Assembly: GCA_021789555.1 (NCBI GenBank)
Contig: JAJYJK010000016.1
Coordinates: forward strand, 1-48,588
DNA from: Nitrospirota bacterium
GTDB lineage: Bacteria > Nitrospirota > Thermodesulfovibrionia > Thermodesulfovibrionales > JdFR-88
Reading direction: 5' to 3'
Length of the DNA stretch: 48,588 nucleotides
Positions 42,574-47,619 of this stretch are shown one piece after another. Under the pieces are notes generated by a model. That model did no database searches. It worked only from the letters and a program-made list of their open reading frames with translations, and was not told the DNA's origin. The position numbers and the translations under genes were made by a program. Positions within the stretch are counted from its first letter, which is position 1. The number at the start of each line of letters is the position of its first letter.

Positions 42574-43938
42574 TTACCGCTCGACTTGCGCCCTGGACGG
42601 CAGGGAGACCCTGAAGACCGAGCCTTCCCCAGGCGCGCTCTTCACGCTTATATTGCCGCCCATGATCTCGACGAGCTGCCTGGCTATGGCAAGCCCGAGC
42701 CCGAACCCCTTCGAATCCTTGCCCTTGTAAAACCTGTCGAAGATGCGATCGAGATCGTCCGGGGACATCCCTTCGCCCGTATCTTCCACCTCCACGTAAA
42801 ACATGGCCCCTTCCCTCCCGTAGCGCAGCGCCACGCCGCCCTGCCGGGTGTGGTTTCTCGCGTTTACCAAGAGGTTTCTGAGCACTTTTTCCAGTTTCTC
42901 GGGCTCGGTGAAGACGGCAAATTCCCGCTCCGGGGCAAGTTCGAGCGCAAGCCCCCTGTCCGTGAAAAGCGGCATCATGCCCAGTACGATGCCTTCGAGG
43001 AACTCCCGGAGGAGCACCTCCTCGGGCGGGTTTTTCTTGAAAAAACTGGCCTCGGCCTTGGTCAGGTCCTCTATGCCGCCGATAAGGCGCGTCAGCGAAT
43101 CGAGCTCCGCCCGGAGCGCTTCAAGCCCCTGGCGGTCGGCCTCTATGACGCCGTCGAGCATCGCTTCTATATTGGCCTTCATTATGGCAAGCGGGGTCCT
43201 CAGCTCGTGCGCCACGTTCGCGGTGAGCTGTTTTCTCAGGGAATCCTCCCTCTGAAGGGCCTCGGCCATGGCGTTAAAGGCGGCCTTGAGCCTGCCTATC
43301 TCATCCGGGCCCGTGCCGCCCAGCCGCACGGTGAGATTGCCCCTGGCCAGGGCCTCGGAGGCGTCCTTCAGCTCCCTGACCGGCCTCGATAAAAACTGGC
43401 TGAACACGACCGCAAGAAACAGCGCCCCTCCGCCGGCTATCGCAAAAGACAGGATTAAGAATTGGCGCCCCCTTTCCTTGAAGGCGCGCTCCTTCCTTCT
43501 GACCACGGAGTTTCCCGTCTGAATGTCCCTTACGGCAAGAAACCCTATCTGGCGGCCCATGCGGAAAAGAGGATAGCGCTCATAGGGGCCCTCGCCGGAG
43601 AGGCCCATTATCTGCATCTTCCTCTGCATCTCCTCGGAAAGACGGGAGACCACCTGGCTGGAGCTGGCTATCAGCCTGCCCGATTTGTCCTCCACCCGGC
43701 AGTCCAGCCGCAGCATCGCGGCCCATTGGAGGGAATCGTCGAGGGTCTTCATGTTCCAGCGGCCCTCATCATACCTGTAGCCGTTTTCGACCGAGTCCAG
43801 CAGCCAGTAGATATGGTCTTCCCTGGTGCCTTTCTCATAGGCCGCGAAGTCGCTCATGATCTTTTCGCCGAAAAAGAAGTTTGAAAAGAGGGCCAGCGCT
43901 ATGACGAGGAAAAAGGCAAAAAAAAGCTTACTCCTCAT
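42574..43938 (-). CDS. Two-component sensor histidine kinase (HAMP type)
   Basis: 454 residues. Membrane helix 1 (FFAFFLVIALALFSNFFF), periplasmic domain about 25-158, helix 2 (FLILSFAIAGGGALFLAVVF), HAMP (SRPVRELKDASEALARGNL), HisKA with NVAHELRTPL (His244), and HATPase with NLLVNARNH, EDTGEGMSPDDL, IFDRFYKGKDSKGFGLGL. Classic BaeS/EnvZ-like layout. Its start lies 11 bases inside the response regulator gene, so the two form one system. The signal is unknown; the periplasmic domain has a single Cys. Confidence 0.96.
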   Translation of the reverse strand: MRSKLFFAFFLVIALALFSNFFFGEKIMSDFAAYEKGTREDHIYWLLDSVENGYRYDEGRWNMKTLDDSLQWAAMLRLDCRVEDKSGRLIASSSQVVSRLSEEMQRKMQIMGLSGEGPYERYPLFRMGRQIGFLAVRDIQTGNSVVRRKERAFKERGRQFLILSFAIAGGGALFLAVVFSQFLSRPVRELKDASEALARGNLTVRLGGTGPDEIGRLKAAFNAMAEALQREDSLRKQLTANVAHELRTPLAIMKANIEAMLDGVIEADRQGLEALRAELDSLTRLIGGIEDLTKAEASFFKKNPPEEVLLREFLEGIVLGMMPLFTDRGLALELAPEREFAVFTEPEKLEKVLRNLLVNARNHTRQGGVALRYGREGAMFYVEVEDTGEGMSPDDLDRIFDRFYKGKDSKGFGLGLAIARQLVEIMGGNISVKSAPGEGSVFRVSLPSRAQVER

Positions 43939-44623
43939 CCTTTACGCCTATGAACTTGTAGCCCACTCCGTAGATGGTCTTTATGAAGATCGGGTTTTTG
44001 GGGTCGTCTTCTATCTTCTGGCGCAGGTTTTTGACGTGGGCGTCTATGGTGCGCTCGTAGCCCTCGAAATCGTATCCCTGCACCATATTCACAAGCTGGA
44101 GGCGCGACAGCACCCGGCCCGGCCTCTCGGAGAGGGAGACGAGTATGCCGAACTCCGAGGGGGTGAGCGTCAGCGGCTCGCCGTCCCTGATGACCTCGCG
44201 TTTAAGGACGTCTATCACCAGAGCGCCCCTGTTGAAAGACATCCTCGTGTAGGGTCTCTTGTGCCTCCGCAGCTGGGCCTTTATGCGCGCAAGGAGCTCC
44301 CCAGGGCTGAAAGGTTTGGTCACGTAATCGTCCGCGCCGAGGCTGAGGCCCTTTATTATGTCGTCCTCCCCGGTCTTCGCCGTGAGCATTATCACCGGGA
44401 TATCGGAGTTCTGCCTTATCATCGCGCAGAGGTCCTCCCCCTGGAGGCCGGGCAGCATGAGGTCCAGCACCACCAGGTCGGGGTTCTGCTTCAGGTGCCG
44501 CAGCGCCTCTTCGGCGGAGCCCGCCATGAGGGGCCTGAAACCCTCGCGCTCCAGGTAGAGCTTGACTATGTCGGAAATCTTTCTTTCGTCCTCGACCACG
44601 AGTATCGTCGACTTGCCGCTCAT
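43928..44623 (-). CDS. OmpR-family response regulator
   Basis: 231 residues. Receiver with acidic pair Glu11-Asp12-Glu13, phospho-acceptor Asp54 in VVLDLMLPGL, switch Thr in VIMLTAKTG and Lys in DDYVTKPFSPGELLARI; then an OmpR/PhoB winged helix with LTPSEFGILVSLSERPGRVLSR and ERTIDAHVKNLRQKIEDD, and VYGVGYKF-type end (IYGVGYKFIGVKDEE). It binds DNA when phosphorylated by the kinase encoded next. It follows the YkgJ protein by 12 bases, in a probable four-gene operon with the TGA-containing CXXC gene. Confidence 0.97.
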   Translation of the reverse strand: MSGKSTILVVEDERKISDIVKLYLEREGFRPLMAGSAEEALRHLKQNPDLVVLDLMLPGLQGEDLCAMIRQNSDIPVIMLTAKTGEDDIIKGLSLGADDYVTKPFSPGELLARIKAQLRRHKRPYTRMSFNRGALVIDVLKREVIRDGEPLTLTPSEFGILVSLSERPGRVLSRLQLVNMVQGYDFEGYERTIDAHVKNLRQKIEDDPKNPIFIKTIYGVGYKFIGVKDEE

Positions 44624-44635
44624 CGGGCAAAACCC

Positions 44636-45211
44636 CTAAATCTCATCGAAGTCCAGCTCCAGGGACATATCCATTATCATCTGGGCAGTGGTCTTCCTAA
44701 ACCTTTCCTTGAAGCCGAGCTGCTCCCTGAGGGCCTTCTCTATCAGGGCAAGCTCCGTATAGAAGGGCGTTCGGTCCAGGCTGGCCGTCGACTCGCCCTT
44801 CACCCTGTGGCACCCCCCGGCCGTCTTCCTGACGCCATCGGGCATGATGAAGAAATGGGGCAGGCCGTGGAGCCTGCATATCATCGGCCGCCAGTGGTAA
44901 AGGGCGCACTTCCCGTCAAAGTTCGCCGGGCACATGAGCTTGAATATCTCGCCGGCCTGAAGCTCGTGGACATAGCTTTCAACCACGATCCGCGCCCGCC
45001 TGACAATGGTCCGTTTCAGTTCGGCCGGGGCGGCCTTGAGCCCTTCCAGAAGATACAGGTATTCGGCGACCGTATGGTGATGGAACCTCTGGCTGCAGCA
45101 GTTTTCGTCGCAACCGCGGCAGGTAAGGCCATAGACGGCGGAGACCTTTTCGTACTCCAGGTCCATGCGGGCGTAAAGGTCCCCGAGTTTCTTCAGCTCG
45201 CCTTCAATCAT
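44636..45211 (-). CDS. YkgJ-type cysteine-cluster protein
   Basis: 191 residues. Cysteines arranged as in the zinc/iron-chelating YkgJ family: LTCRGCDENCCSQRFHHHT near the start, LMCPANFDGKCALYHWRPMICRLHGLPHF in the middle and TAGGCHRV later. The HHH and the CxxC-x3-CC cluster suggest metal or Fe-S binding; function unknown. Lies between the CXXC gene and the response regulator on one strand, with gaps of 39 and 12 bases. Confidence 0.9.
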   Translation of the reverse strand: MIEGELKKLGDLYARMDLEYEKVSAVYGLTCRGCDENCCSQRFHHHTVAEYLYLLEGLKAAPAELKRTIVRRARIVVESYVHELQAGEIFKLMCPANFDGKCALYHWRPMICRLHGLPHFFIMPDGVRKTAGGCHRVKGESTASLDRTPFYTELALIEKALREQLGFKERFRKTTAQMIMDMSLELDFDEI

Positions 45212-45250: not shown

Positions 45251-45418
45251 TCAGGCCCTGTCCGCGGGACGGCGTGAGATCTCCTCCCAGAGGGGCTCAT
45301 CGATCTCCTCCAGGTAGTCCCTGAGTTCGAAGACCCTGCCGCATCCCGTGCAGCGAAGCCTTACGGCCTTTCAGCCGAAAACTGCGCGCACTTCCGCGCG
45401 GCAAACCCTGCATTCCAT
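45251..45418 (-). CDS. Candidate small selenoprotein: dual CXXC protein with in-frame TGA
   Basis: Reading from ATG 45418 gives 55 residues if the TGA at codon 16 (45373-45371) is read through. Before it: ECRVC at residues 3-7 and VRAVFG; after it: KAVRLRCTGCGRVFELRDYL, then EIDEPLWEEISRR and a TGA stop at 45251. The two CXXC motifs, one on each side of the TGA in the same frame, and the absence of any start codon after it argue against two genes. It resembles, from memory, the dual-CXXC small (seleno)proteins of Desulfobacterota, in which a Cys or Sec stands between the two motifs. A stem of six pairs (GCCGTA / TGCGGC, 45367-45338) starts four bases after the TGA and could be part of a SECIS. 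First gene of the YkgJ-regulator-kinase operon. A pseudogene is the alternative. Confidence 0.62.
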
Positions 45419-45459: not shown

Positions 45460-45551
45460 CCTCAATCCGCCACCTGGAAACCAGAGACCCTTCTTCCCGG
45501 TAGTGCATCACTTTGATTCTGCCACCGCTAGATTCAAAAAATCCCCTATGC

Positions 45552-45566
45552 CATAATAGAAGTATG
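45552..45566 (+). promoter_or_regulatory. -10 element placing the KGG-protein start at the ATG
   Basis: CATAAT at 45552-45557; the predicted +1 is 45564, the A of the ATG. No Shine-Dalgarno sequence; no clear -35. Confidence 0.4.
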
Positions 45567-45794
45567 CCAAAAGGCCCGCAAGGACAAAAGAGACCTGCCG
45601 ATGCAATCGGCTGTGCTATCAAGGTCGCCAAGATTGCCACTGGCGAGATTGAGGAAAAGCCCGATCTGAAGGATTACGCCCGAAAGGGTGGCTTAAAAGG
45701 TGGCAAGTCTAGAGCCGTCAAACTCTCCTCCGAAAAAAGAAAAGAGATTGCCCAGAAGGCCGCACAGTCACGCTGGAGTAAAAAGACTTCTTAA
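45564..45794 (+). CDS. Small basic protein with KGGxKGG motif
   Basis: 76 residues from the ATG at 45564 (the frame is open to 45513 but begins better here). MPKGPQGQKRPADAIGCAIK is followed by RKGGLKGGKSRAVKLSSEKR and KEIAQKAAQSRW: the RKGGLKGGKARA...RKEIAKKAAxARW pattern is seen in many small bacterial proteins, probably nucleic-acid binding. pI should be very high. It sits at the edge of the AT-richer accessory patch. Function unknown. Confidence 0.72.
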   Translation: MPKGPQGQKRPADAIGCAIKVAKIATGEIEEKPDLKDYARKGGLKGGKSRAVKLSSEKRKEIAQKAAQSRWSKKTS

Positions 45795-46028
45795 TAGGTT
45801 TTTTCAGCTATCGCTTCCTTTCCTTCTGTTCAGAATATGTACAAAGGATTTTGGTTCAATCCCTAATGGCAGTTGCTCAATTATGCTCATTGGTAAAATT
45901 TTCTCTTTTTTTCTAAAATCACCCAACTTCCCCTTGACCGCCTAATAAGTTGTGTGCTTAAATAGACAAACGCCTCTTAGGCGGTTTGTAATAACTTTGG
46001 CCGAAAAGGCCGGAAGGGAGAAAAAGGG
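45795..46028. other. AT-rich gap with a bulged hairpin
   Basis: No ORF. Near 45966-45990, ACAAACGCC / GGCGGTTTGT forms a stem with one bulge, and GGCC-GAAAA-GGCC follows. The stretch just before 46029 provides the ribosome site (GGGAGAAAAAGGG) of the next gene. Confidence 0.4.
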
Positions 46029-46484
46029 ATGCCTGTTATAAATACGGATGAGCTTAAGAAAAAATTGCACGCCGAACGCGACCTATACCGGCAAAAGGTT
46101 GAAGAAATAGAAAACAAAATCCGGTATATCGAGGAATTGGAGCAAATGGCTGGGGTAACTATGGCAGCCGTGGCTATAAAGGCCAGTGCGCCTAAAAGTG
46201 GAGAACCCTCTTTGTCCGATGCCATAGTCGGCCTTTTAGAAGAACGGCGAGAGTGGCTCTCAACGGCTGAAATAGCGGAAGAGCTGTCCAGGCGGGGCTA
46301 TGAGGAAAAAAGCACTTCTGGTAATTTCAAGATGATGGTCCTGACTGCGGTTCCGAAGCTTTGGAAAAGAAGTAATCCCAAGATAGACCGTATTGATGGC
46401 CCTAATGGGATTAAATACGGGATGCTCGGTCTAAAGAAACCTGATGAACAAAAGGAGGATTCGCTATTGGCGAACAGGAATTAA
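46029..46484 (+). CDS. Winged-helix protein with N-terminal coiled coil
   Basis: 151 residues. Residues about 7-42 are charged heptads (ELKKKLHAERDLYRQKVEEI), predicted coiled coil; about 62-135 form a winged helix (SDAIVGLLEERREWLSTAEI, IAEELSRRGYEEKSTSGNF, then VPKLWKRSNPKIDRID). It looks like a small DNA-binding regulator of the wHTH (HARE/vHTH-like) kind, not a named family. Followed at once by a strong terminator. Its lower GC and neighbours suggest it came with the accessory patch. Confidence 0.65.
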   Translation: MPVINTDELKKKLHAERDLYRQKVEEIENKIRYIEELEQMAGVTMAAVAIKASAPKSGEPSLSDAIVGLLEERREWLSTAEIAEELSRRGYEEKSTSGNFKMMVLTAVPKLWKRSNPKIDRIDGPNGIKYGMLGLKKPDEQKEDSLLANRN

Positions 46485-46488
46485 AAAA

Positions 46489-46524
46489 GCGTATCGGTAG
46501 TTCGAGCTATCGATACGCCTTTTT
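46489..46524 (+). terminator. Strong intrinsic terminator after the winged-helix gene
   Basis: 12-bp stem GCGTATCGGTAG / CTATCGATACGC (one G-T pair), loop TTCGAG, then five T. Flanking A-run makes it usable in both directions. Confidence 0.8.
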
Positions 46525-46551
46525 AAAATACATGGGCCTTGATGGAAGGCC

Positions 46552-46596
46552 GTGTAACAAGTGTTACCGTTGATTCAAATACTACACTTGTTACAC
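46552..46596. promoter_or_regulatory. Perfect 12-bp inverted repeat, probable operator
   Basis: GTGTAACAAGTG (46552-46563) and CACTTGTTACAC (46585-46596), 21 bases between; the left arm with the next three bases also gives GTAACA-AG-TGTTAC. A weak promoter (TTGATT 46570-46575, 16 bases, TACACT 46592-46597) lies over the right half, so a repressor bound to both arms could block it. Confidence 0.55.
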
Positions 46597-46629
46597 TTCC
46601 TAAAGTCAAGGTCCTAAAGGAGGTGCGCA

Positions 46630-46701
46630 ATGGCTAAGCGAGCTAAGCGCAAAGGGCCTACTTTTCCTAAGCCCAAACCGCCGATAGTCTTAAGGCGATA
46701 A
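46630..46701 (+). CDS. 23-residue basic microprotein ORF
   Basis: ATG at 46630, preceded by AAAGGAGG seven bases upstream, one of the best ribosome sites in the window, which makes translation likely. The product MAKRAKRKGPTFPKPKPP... ends IVLRR: 10 of 23 residues are Lys/Arg and 5 are Pro. It stands between the inverted repeat and a perfect terminator hairpin, so it seems to be its own transcription unit (or a leader peptide). No family known to me. Too short for homology. Confidence 0.55.
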   Translation: MAKRAKRKGPTFPKPKPPIVLRR

Positions 46702-46708
46702 TTGGGTG

Positions 46709-46748
46709 AAAGAACGGCAGATGATCTAAAATTGTCTGCCGTTCTTTT
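46709..46748 (+). terminator. Intrinsic terminator after the microprotein ORF
   Basis: Perfect 13-bp stem AAAGAACGGCAGA / TCTGCCGTTCTTT, 13-base loop, ending in TTTT. Eight bases past the TAA of the microprotein ORF. Confidence 0.75.
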
Positions 46749-46765
46749 CAAATTGCAAATAATGC

Positions 46766-46794
46766 TTGGCACTCAAGCAAAAAGTTCATATACT
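46766..46794 (+). promoter_or_regulatory. Promoter of the transposase, start at the ATG
   Basis: TTGGCA at 46766-46771, 17-base spacer, TATACT at 46789-46794; each is one mismatch from consensus. The predicted +1 is 46801, the A of the ATG. No Shine-Dalgarno. Confidence 0.7.
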
Positions 46795-46800
46795 AGAATC

Positions 46801-47619
46801 ATGAACAAGTTAGATACTAAAAAGCGCGTTCAAATTCTCCAGATGCTTTGTGAAGGTTCGTCCATGCGCTCCATAGCCCGGATTATGGATGTATCCTTTA
46901 ACACGGTAGTAAAGTTGCTTATAGATGCTGGAAACGCTTGTTCTGAATATCAGGATAAGGTATTTCGCAATCTTCCCTGCAAACGCATTCAAGTTGATGA
47001 GATCTGGAGCTTTTGCTACTGCAAGGATAAAAATGTACCCGCAGCGCATGAAGGGGAGTTTGGCTTTGGGGATGTCTGGACGTTCACGGCAATTTGTGCG
47101 GACTCTAAGCTCGTCCCTTCATGGAGAGTCGGAAATCGGAATATCGAAGATGCAAAACCTTTTATAGCGGATTTAGCGAGCCGCCTTTCCAATCGCGTTC
47201 AGCTTACCAGTGACGGCCATAAAATGTACCTCGATGCAGTTGAAGGGGCCTTTGGTTCGGAAGTGGATTTTGCTCAGTTGCAGAAAATCTATGGTGTTGA
47301 GCGGGAAGACACAAAATACAGCCCGGCAAAGTGTTTGGGGGCTTCTAAGGTCACGATCAAGGGAAAACCCGATATGAAACAGGTCTCTACCAGCTATGTA
47401 GAGCGGCAAAACCTGAATATGTGCATGGGCATGAGGCGTTTTACCCGTTTAACCAACGCATTCTCGAAGAAAATCGAGAATCATATCCATGCACTTTCTT
47501 TGTATTTCATGTTTTACAATTTTGCACGGATTCATAAGACCCTAAGAGTACCCCCTGCAATGGAAGCTGGTATCGCTGACCATGTTTGGACTATTGAGGA
47601 AATATTAAATCTGGTTTAG
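46801..47619 (+). CDS. IS1-like transposase
   Basis: 272 residues from the ATG at 46801; the frame is open to 46702 but that part covers a terminator and promoter. N-terminal helix-turn-helix (KRVQILQMLCEGSSMRSIAR, VSFNTVVKLLIDAG), then an IS1-type DDE domain: IQVDEIWSF (Asp), VQLTSDGHKMYLDAV (Asp), STSYVERQNLNMCMGMRRFT (Glu), and HALSLYFMFYNFARIHKTLR. The catalytic residues are in place. Such IS1-like ORFs occur widely as single copies without obvious terminal repeats, as here: I find no flanking inverted repeats. Its stop overlaps the next gene, on the other strand. Confidence 0.86.
   Translation: MNKLDTKKRVQILQMLCEGSSMRSIARIMDVSFNTVVKLLIDAGNACSEYQDKVFRNLPCKRIQVDEIWSFCYCKDKNVPAAHEGEFGFGDVWTFTAICADSKLVPSWRVGNRNIEDAKPFIADLASRLSNRVQLTSDGHKMYLDAVEGAFGSEVDFAQLQKIYGVEREDTKYSPAKCLGASKVTIKGKPDMKQVSTSYVERQNLNMCMGMRRFTRLTNAFSKKIENHIHALSLYFMFYNFARIHKTLRVPPAMEAGIADHVWTIEEILNLV

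Follow-up and report, generated by a model that had tools for sequence, protein, structure and literature searches.

The selenoprotein locus

The window analyzed here is a stretch of 48,588 nucleotides from a Nitrospirota genome (GenBank assembly GCA_021789555.1, 2.85 Mb in 108 contigs, 98.8% complete; contig JAJYJK010000016.1). On its minus strand, a 55-codon frame interrupted by an in-frame TGA (45251..45418) is followed by genes for a putative metal-chelating protein of the YkgJ-like CxxCxxCC type (44636..45211), an OmpR-type response regulator (43928..44623; PF00072 and PF00486, both above cut-off) and a sensor histidine kinase with HAMP, HisKA and HATPase domains recognized by Pfam (42574..43938). 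Translated with TGA as selenocysteine (Sec), the frame starting at 45418 reads MECRVCRAEVRAVFG-U-KAVRLRCTGCGRVFELRDYLEEIDEPLWEEISRRPADRA and ends at a terminal TGA (45253-45251). The internal TGA (45373-45371) is codon 16 and is flanked by two CXXC motifs (C3xxC6, U16, C23xxC26).

The original prediction of this gene, made from the letters of the window, had described a 55-codon frame with ECRVC before a TGA at codon 16, RCTGCG after it and a stop at codon 56; both the coordinates and the translation agree with this description. As also predicted, none of the start codons ATG, GTG and TTG occurs in frame between the internal TGA and the stop, and standard gene calling misses the gene, the list of open reading frames for the region being devoid of the selenoprotein frame. 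A 49-aa open reading frame at 45446-45297 was set aside because the conserved product is encoded in the other frame.

A member of the NF041197 family

The product of TGA readthrough scores 53.6 bits with the NCBIfam model NF041197, "dual CXXC motif small (seleno)protein", for which the curated cut-off is 40 bits, residues 3-54 being aligned with positions 1-52 of the 53 in the model, and it contains the two CXXC motifs with Sec between them, the position that holds either Sec or Cys in this family. The original prediction had likewise pointed to small dual-CXXC proteins of anaerobes with Cys or Sec between the motifs. In a Pfam search, no family passed the cut-off for this product. A 2026 review equates NF041197 with OS_HP3, a known selenoprotein family with Sec for which Zhang and Gladyshev 2007 is cited, and gives the same accession to the hypothetical protein DW (PMC13188914). 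OS_HP3 is the only known selenoprotein that deep-Sep missed in its 20 test genomes, and the hypothetical selenoprotein DW was predicted by deep-Sep in Desulfosarcina on the basis of its UGA, of homologues with Cys and of a SECIS-like structure (PMC12013277).

The window member has the same length as the NF041197/OS_HP3 proteins, the two CXXC motifs and the Sec/Cys position in the linker, but lacks the C-terminal Cys, with RPADR in place of the RPCNR found in most relatives. DW, which we liken to it by accession and description (PMC12013277; PMC13188914), comes from Desulfosarcina, whereas the host of the gene analyzed here belongs to Nitrospirota. The family is already catalogued, and the window gene is a further member of it rather than a new kind of system.

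Conservation of the UGA codon and its replacement by Cys

Among the 101 sampled genomes of the order, the source genome included, 89 carry the gene; the Sec codon is TGA in 84 of these and TGC or TGT in the remaining 5, and neither TAA, TAG nor a third residue was found at this position among the order matches that cover the codon. Six homologues from Desulfobacterota (Desulfobulbaceae, Desulfocapsa and others) have Cys in the Sec column, such that the comparison with homologues called for in the original prediction returns Sec or Cys at position 16 throughout. A scan of genome contigs with the single protein recovered 8 relatives, the closest copies belonging to two Nitrospirae MAGs, which apparently correspond to the contigs of G001 and G002. 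Given that same-genus genomes share the identical TGA, it is not a sequencing error. Downstream of the TGA, the differences at codon positions 1/2/3 number 2/2/7 to G002 and 5/0/12 to G001, i.e., as judged from these alignments, substitution in the two same-genus genomes is protein-like and favors third positions.

If the TGA were a true stop, as standard bacterial gene callers treat it, with no such open reading frame listed, the locus would be a pseudogene or encode a peptide of only 15 residues, with no translation beyond it. We consider this highly improbable: the TGA is kept in 84 genomes and never exchanged for TAA or TAG, protein-level conservation extends past it, and Cys replaces it in five genomes, mostly where selA has been lost. 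Judged by the profile score of 53.6 bits to NF041197 and by TGA at the same codon in 84/101 genomes, the conservation of the frame is far beyond chance.

The Cys forms are enriched in genomes in which selA is missing or broken (3/5, compared with 6/84 TGA genomes; Fisher p = 0.005-0.007, without correction for phylogeny). Of the 6 TGA-form genomes without a full selA match, one retains only a fragment, and for the remaining ones the apparent lack of selA may reflect draft gaps. In the genome G083, selA is represented by short fragments with a stop (G083:C105:4711-5083) and the NF041197 gene has Cys, so this organism has likely lost Sec decoding. In the broader phylum sample, an NF041197 match is present in 71/198 genomes, nearly always with one TGA.

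A conserved hairpin downstream of the UGA

A SECIS-like hairpin with the stem GCTGCA/TGCGGC and the loop CGGGA (45338..45354, minus strand) starts 16 nt after the TGA. In the 85 ungapped TGA sequences used for the hairpin analysis, with 500 column shuffles as the control, this stem with its 5-nt loop is paired in 96% of cells, compared with 18-53% for slid versions of the stem. At the closing pair, G-C is replaced by A-U in 4 sequences and by C-G in 2, and U-A occurs once at the second pair; altogether there are 7 double-change cells, against a shuffle mean of 0.4, a count that was reached by 0/500 shuffles. Thus, a covarying SECIS-like hairpin is located just 3' of the UGA, as is characteristic of bacterial selenoprotein genes. 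The stem named in the original prediction, GCCGTA/TGCGGC, did not survive this analysis: it is paired in 64% of cells in the relatives, the same as in shuffles, and was rejected as the SECIS stem, its 3' arm TGCGGC pairing instead with GCTGCA in the conserved hairpin. The selenoprotein reading itself stands, with the pairing corrected.

Because the stem overlaps the second CXXC, part of the pairing is explained by protein conservation, and most informative are the third codon positions of Gly27 and of the Cys residues. The Cys codons within the hairpin are biased toward TGC (81:4 and 73:12, compared with 59:24 at the Cys codon nearest the N-terminus). The same overlap with the CXXC codons accounts for the five Cys-form genes still keeping 5-6 of the 6 hairpin pairs. 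The folding signal in single sequences is modest: compared singly with synonymous recodings, the TGA-form regions are the better folded, with a mean z of -1.4 (Cys forms -0.9, n = 5), and the window sequence alone folds mildly better than its recodings (p about 0.12). A search of Rfam yielded no match to a SECIS family.

A second, divergent and shorter UGA-containing paralogue was detected in a single-contig genome of the order (L137:4001-4117; G067:C1:1672647-1672763), in which the hairpin is poorly preserved, with 3/6 pairs.

Selenocysteine machinery in the source genome

The search for the Sec machinery suggested in the original prediction recovered all four components in the same genome as the gene: selA (584 bits), selB (361 bits), selD (333 bits) and selC, the tRNA-Sec, with a UCA anticodon (73 bits); SelB and SelA are each present as one full-length copy. 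Together with the comparison of homologues and the TGA shared by same-genus genomes, this means that none of the three refuting conditions given in the original prediction applies. Furthermore, selD of this genome (L015:1501-2427) itself contains an in-frame UGA at the usual Sec site of SelD (SGCAGU), and Sec is therefore the expected reading of UGA in this organism.

The genome also encodes a 94-nt tRNA-Cys with a GCA anticodon (L007:1501-1594, on contig C101 of G000), which reaches 47.8 bits with the tRNA-Sec model and so exceeds the gathering score. Going by this score and length, it is probably a selC*-type tRNA-Cys of the kind known from Nitrospirae, where some members have a UCA anticodon (PMC7609411). 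The presence of such a long, tRNA-Sec-like molecule raises the possibility that a suppressor of this type inserts Cys (or Trp), rather than Sec, at UGA. With its GCA anticodon, however, this tRNA reads UGC/UGU, which rules it out as the UGA reader; the tRNA with the UCA anticodon is the tRNA-Sec, and full-length SelB and SelA are present, so that decoding by a suppressor appears most improbable. The internal TGA of the 55-residue Nitrospirota gene is almost certainly read as selenocysteine, and we put the probability that the gene encodes a genuine selenoprotein at about 0.95, a reading that is secure on computational grounds.

Predicted fold

In an AlphaFold2 model built from eight sequences (mean pLDDT 82), residues 9-14 and 19-23 of the selenoprotein form a two-stranded hairpin, which is accompanied by one more strand and by a helix at the C-terminus. 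Sec occupies the turn of this hairpin (residues 15-18), and the Cys knuckles lie where the strands end. The model suggests that the product is a zinc ribbon of small size; by analogy to other zinc ribbons, Sec would be situated away from the metal site. The closest structural neighbors are zinc ribbons, namely RPB9/RPC10, aIF2-beta, ZifS and NrdR, albeit with weak similarity (Z <= 4, Foldseek E above 0.001). ZifS (8yoz), the N-terminal ribbon of RPC10/RPB9 and the ribbon of aIF2-beta (1k81) share the CXXC-hairpin-CXXC arrangement with the predicted fold; to our knowledge, none of these ribbons has Sec in the hairpin turn.

Given that these neighbors are transcription and translation zinc ribbons, and that a two-component system is found next to the gene in one family, the selenoprotein could be a structural or regulatory ribbon (e.g., one that binds nucleic acids or a polymerase), in which Sec would serve only as a sensor. 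Low Z-scores and the many functions served by zinc ribbons weigh against this possibility, and Sec is normally retained for catalysis or redox; we therefore view such a role as possible but rather unlikely.

Most relatives carry a Cys close to the C-terminus (RPCNR), and this residue might pair with Sec16 in a selenylsulphide. The window protein has Ala at this position, so the resolving Cys, if one is needed, would have to come from elsewhere.

Gene neighborhood

Between the selenoprotein frame and the YkgJ-like gene (45211-44636) there are 39 nt, and a further 12 nt separate the YkgJ-like gene from the response regulator gene downstream, which overlaps the histidine kinase gene. The original prediction placed the gene at the head of an operon, which is a reasonable reading of this gene layout. 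The YkgJ-like protein scores just below the PF03692 gathering threshold (20.6 vs 23 bits), hence we denote it only YkgJ-like.

The YkgJ-like protein, the response regulator and the histidine kinase are all present in 12/12 genomes of the family to which the window belongs. The YkgJ-like gene adjoins the selenoprotein gene in 21 loci, 12 in this family and 9 in other families of the order, whereas the two-component pair is found in 3 loci outside the family (15 linked loci for the regulator and the kinase). Because there are only three PF03692 matches in the source genome, the adjacency of the YkgJ-like gene is not expected by chance, although the loci are not independent of one another, owing to shared ancestry. 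In six members of the family, a gene for a YacP-like NYN protein is located between the YkgJ-like gene and the regulator, and in about 10 genomes, a second type of Cys-rich protein (cluster 3) is encoded divergently upstream of the selenoprotein gene; comparison of this cluster with the YkgJ-like group gives an HHalign E of 0.0008 but a probability of only 24%. In the rest of the order the neighbors vary, including ribosomal protein S20 and, as identified by eye, multiheme cytochromes, UbiD and others, and therefore the operon does not define the function. These patterns hint weakly at a functional partnership of the selenoprotein with its operon neighbors.

Upstream of the gene, the open reading frames 45513-45794 and 46029-46484 have no relatives near the gene in other genomes and no Pfam match above cut-off, and scans for promoters and terminators gave counts not usefully above those in shuffles. 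In seven relatives belonging to the family of the source genome, the gene immediately upstream of the selenoprotein gene is LptD-like (named by eye). The corresponding place in the window (45513-47619, plus strand) is occupied by small unrelated open reading frames and an IS1-like transposase (DDE_Tnp_IS1, just under the cut-off), suggesting an insertion or rearrangement.

Proposed role and implications

We propose that the UGA at codon 16 would be decoded by tRNA-Sec(UCA) that is brought by SelB and aided by the hairpin that starts 16 nt downstream, yielding a cytosolic mini zinc ribbon of 55 residues. In this protein, the CXXC cysteines, four in total, would most likely coordinate Zn(II) or Fe(II), and the turn of the beta-hairpin would hold Sec16 as a reactive selenol. 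The most likely role would be in thiol/selenol redox or the handling of soft metals, jointly with the YkgJ-like Cys-cluster protein, which is probably co-transcribed, and the adjacent two-component system would control, or be fed by, this pair. Metal binding, redox chemistry and the partnership with YkgJ and the two-component system are what we infer from the motifs, the model and the gene order; for the redox or metal role, which the original prediction had put forward as redox or metal sensing, we consider the odds to be about even. More speculatively, and with a lesser likelihood, the Sec-containing zinc ribbon and the YkgJ-type Cys-cluster protein, joined in some genomes by the YacP-like NYN protein and the two-component system, might form a single conserved, as yet undescribed metal- or redox-responsive module of Nitrospirota.

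A gene that is missed by standard callers is now placed in NF041197, one of the smallest selenoprotein families, which occurs in nearly every sampled genome of an order of Nitrospirota and has kept its Sec there. The function of this orphan family is opened to testing by a UGA that is nearly fixed, by the appearance of Cys upon the loss of selA and by the recurring YkgJ-like neighbor.
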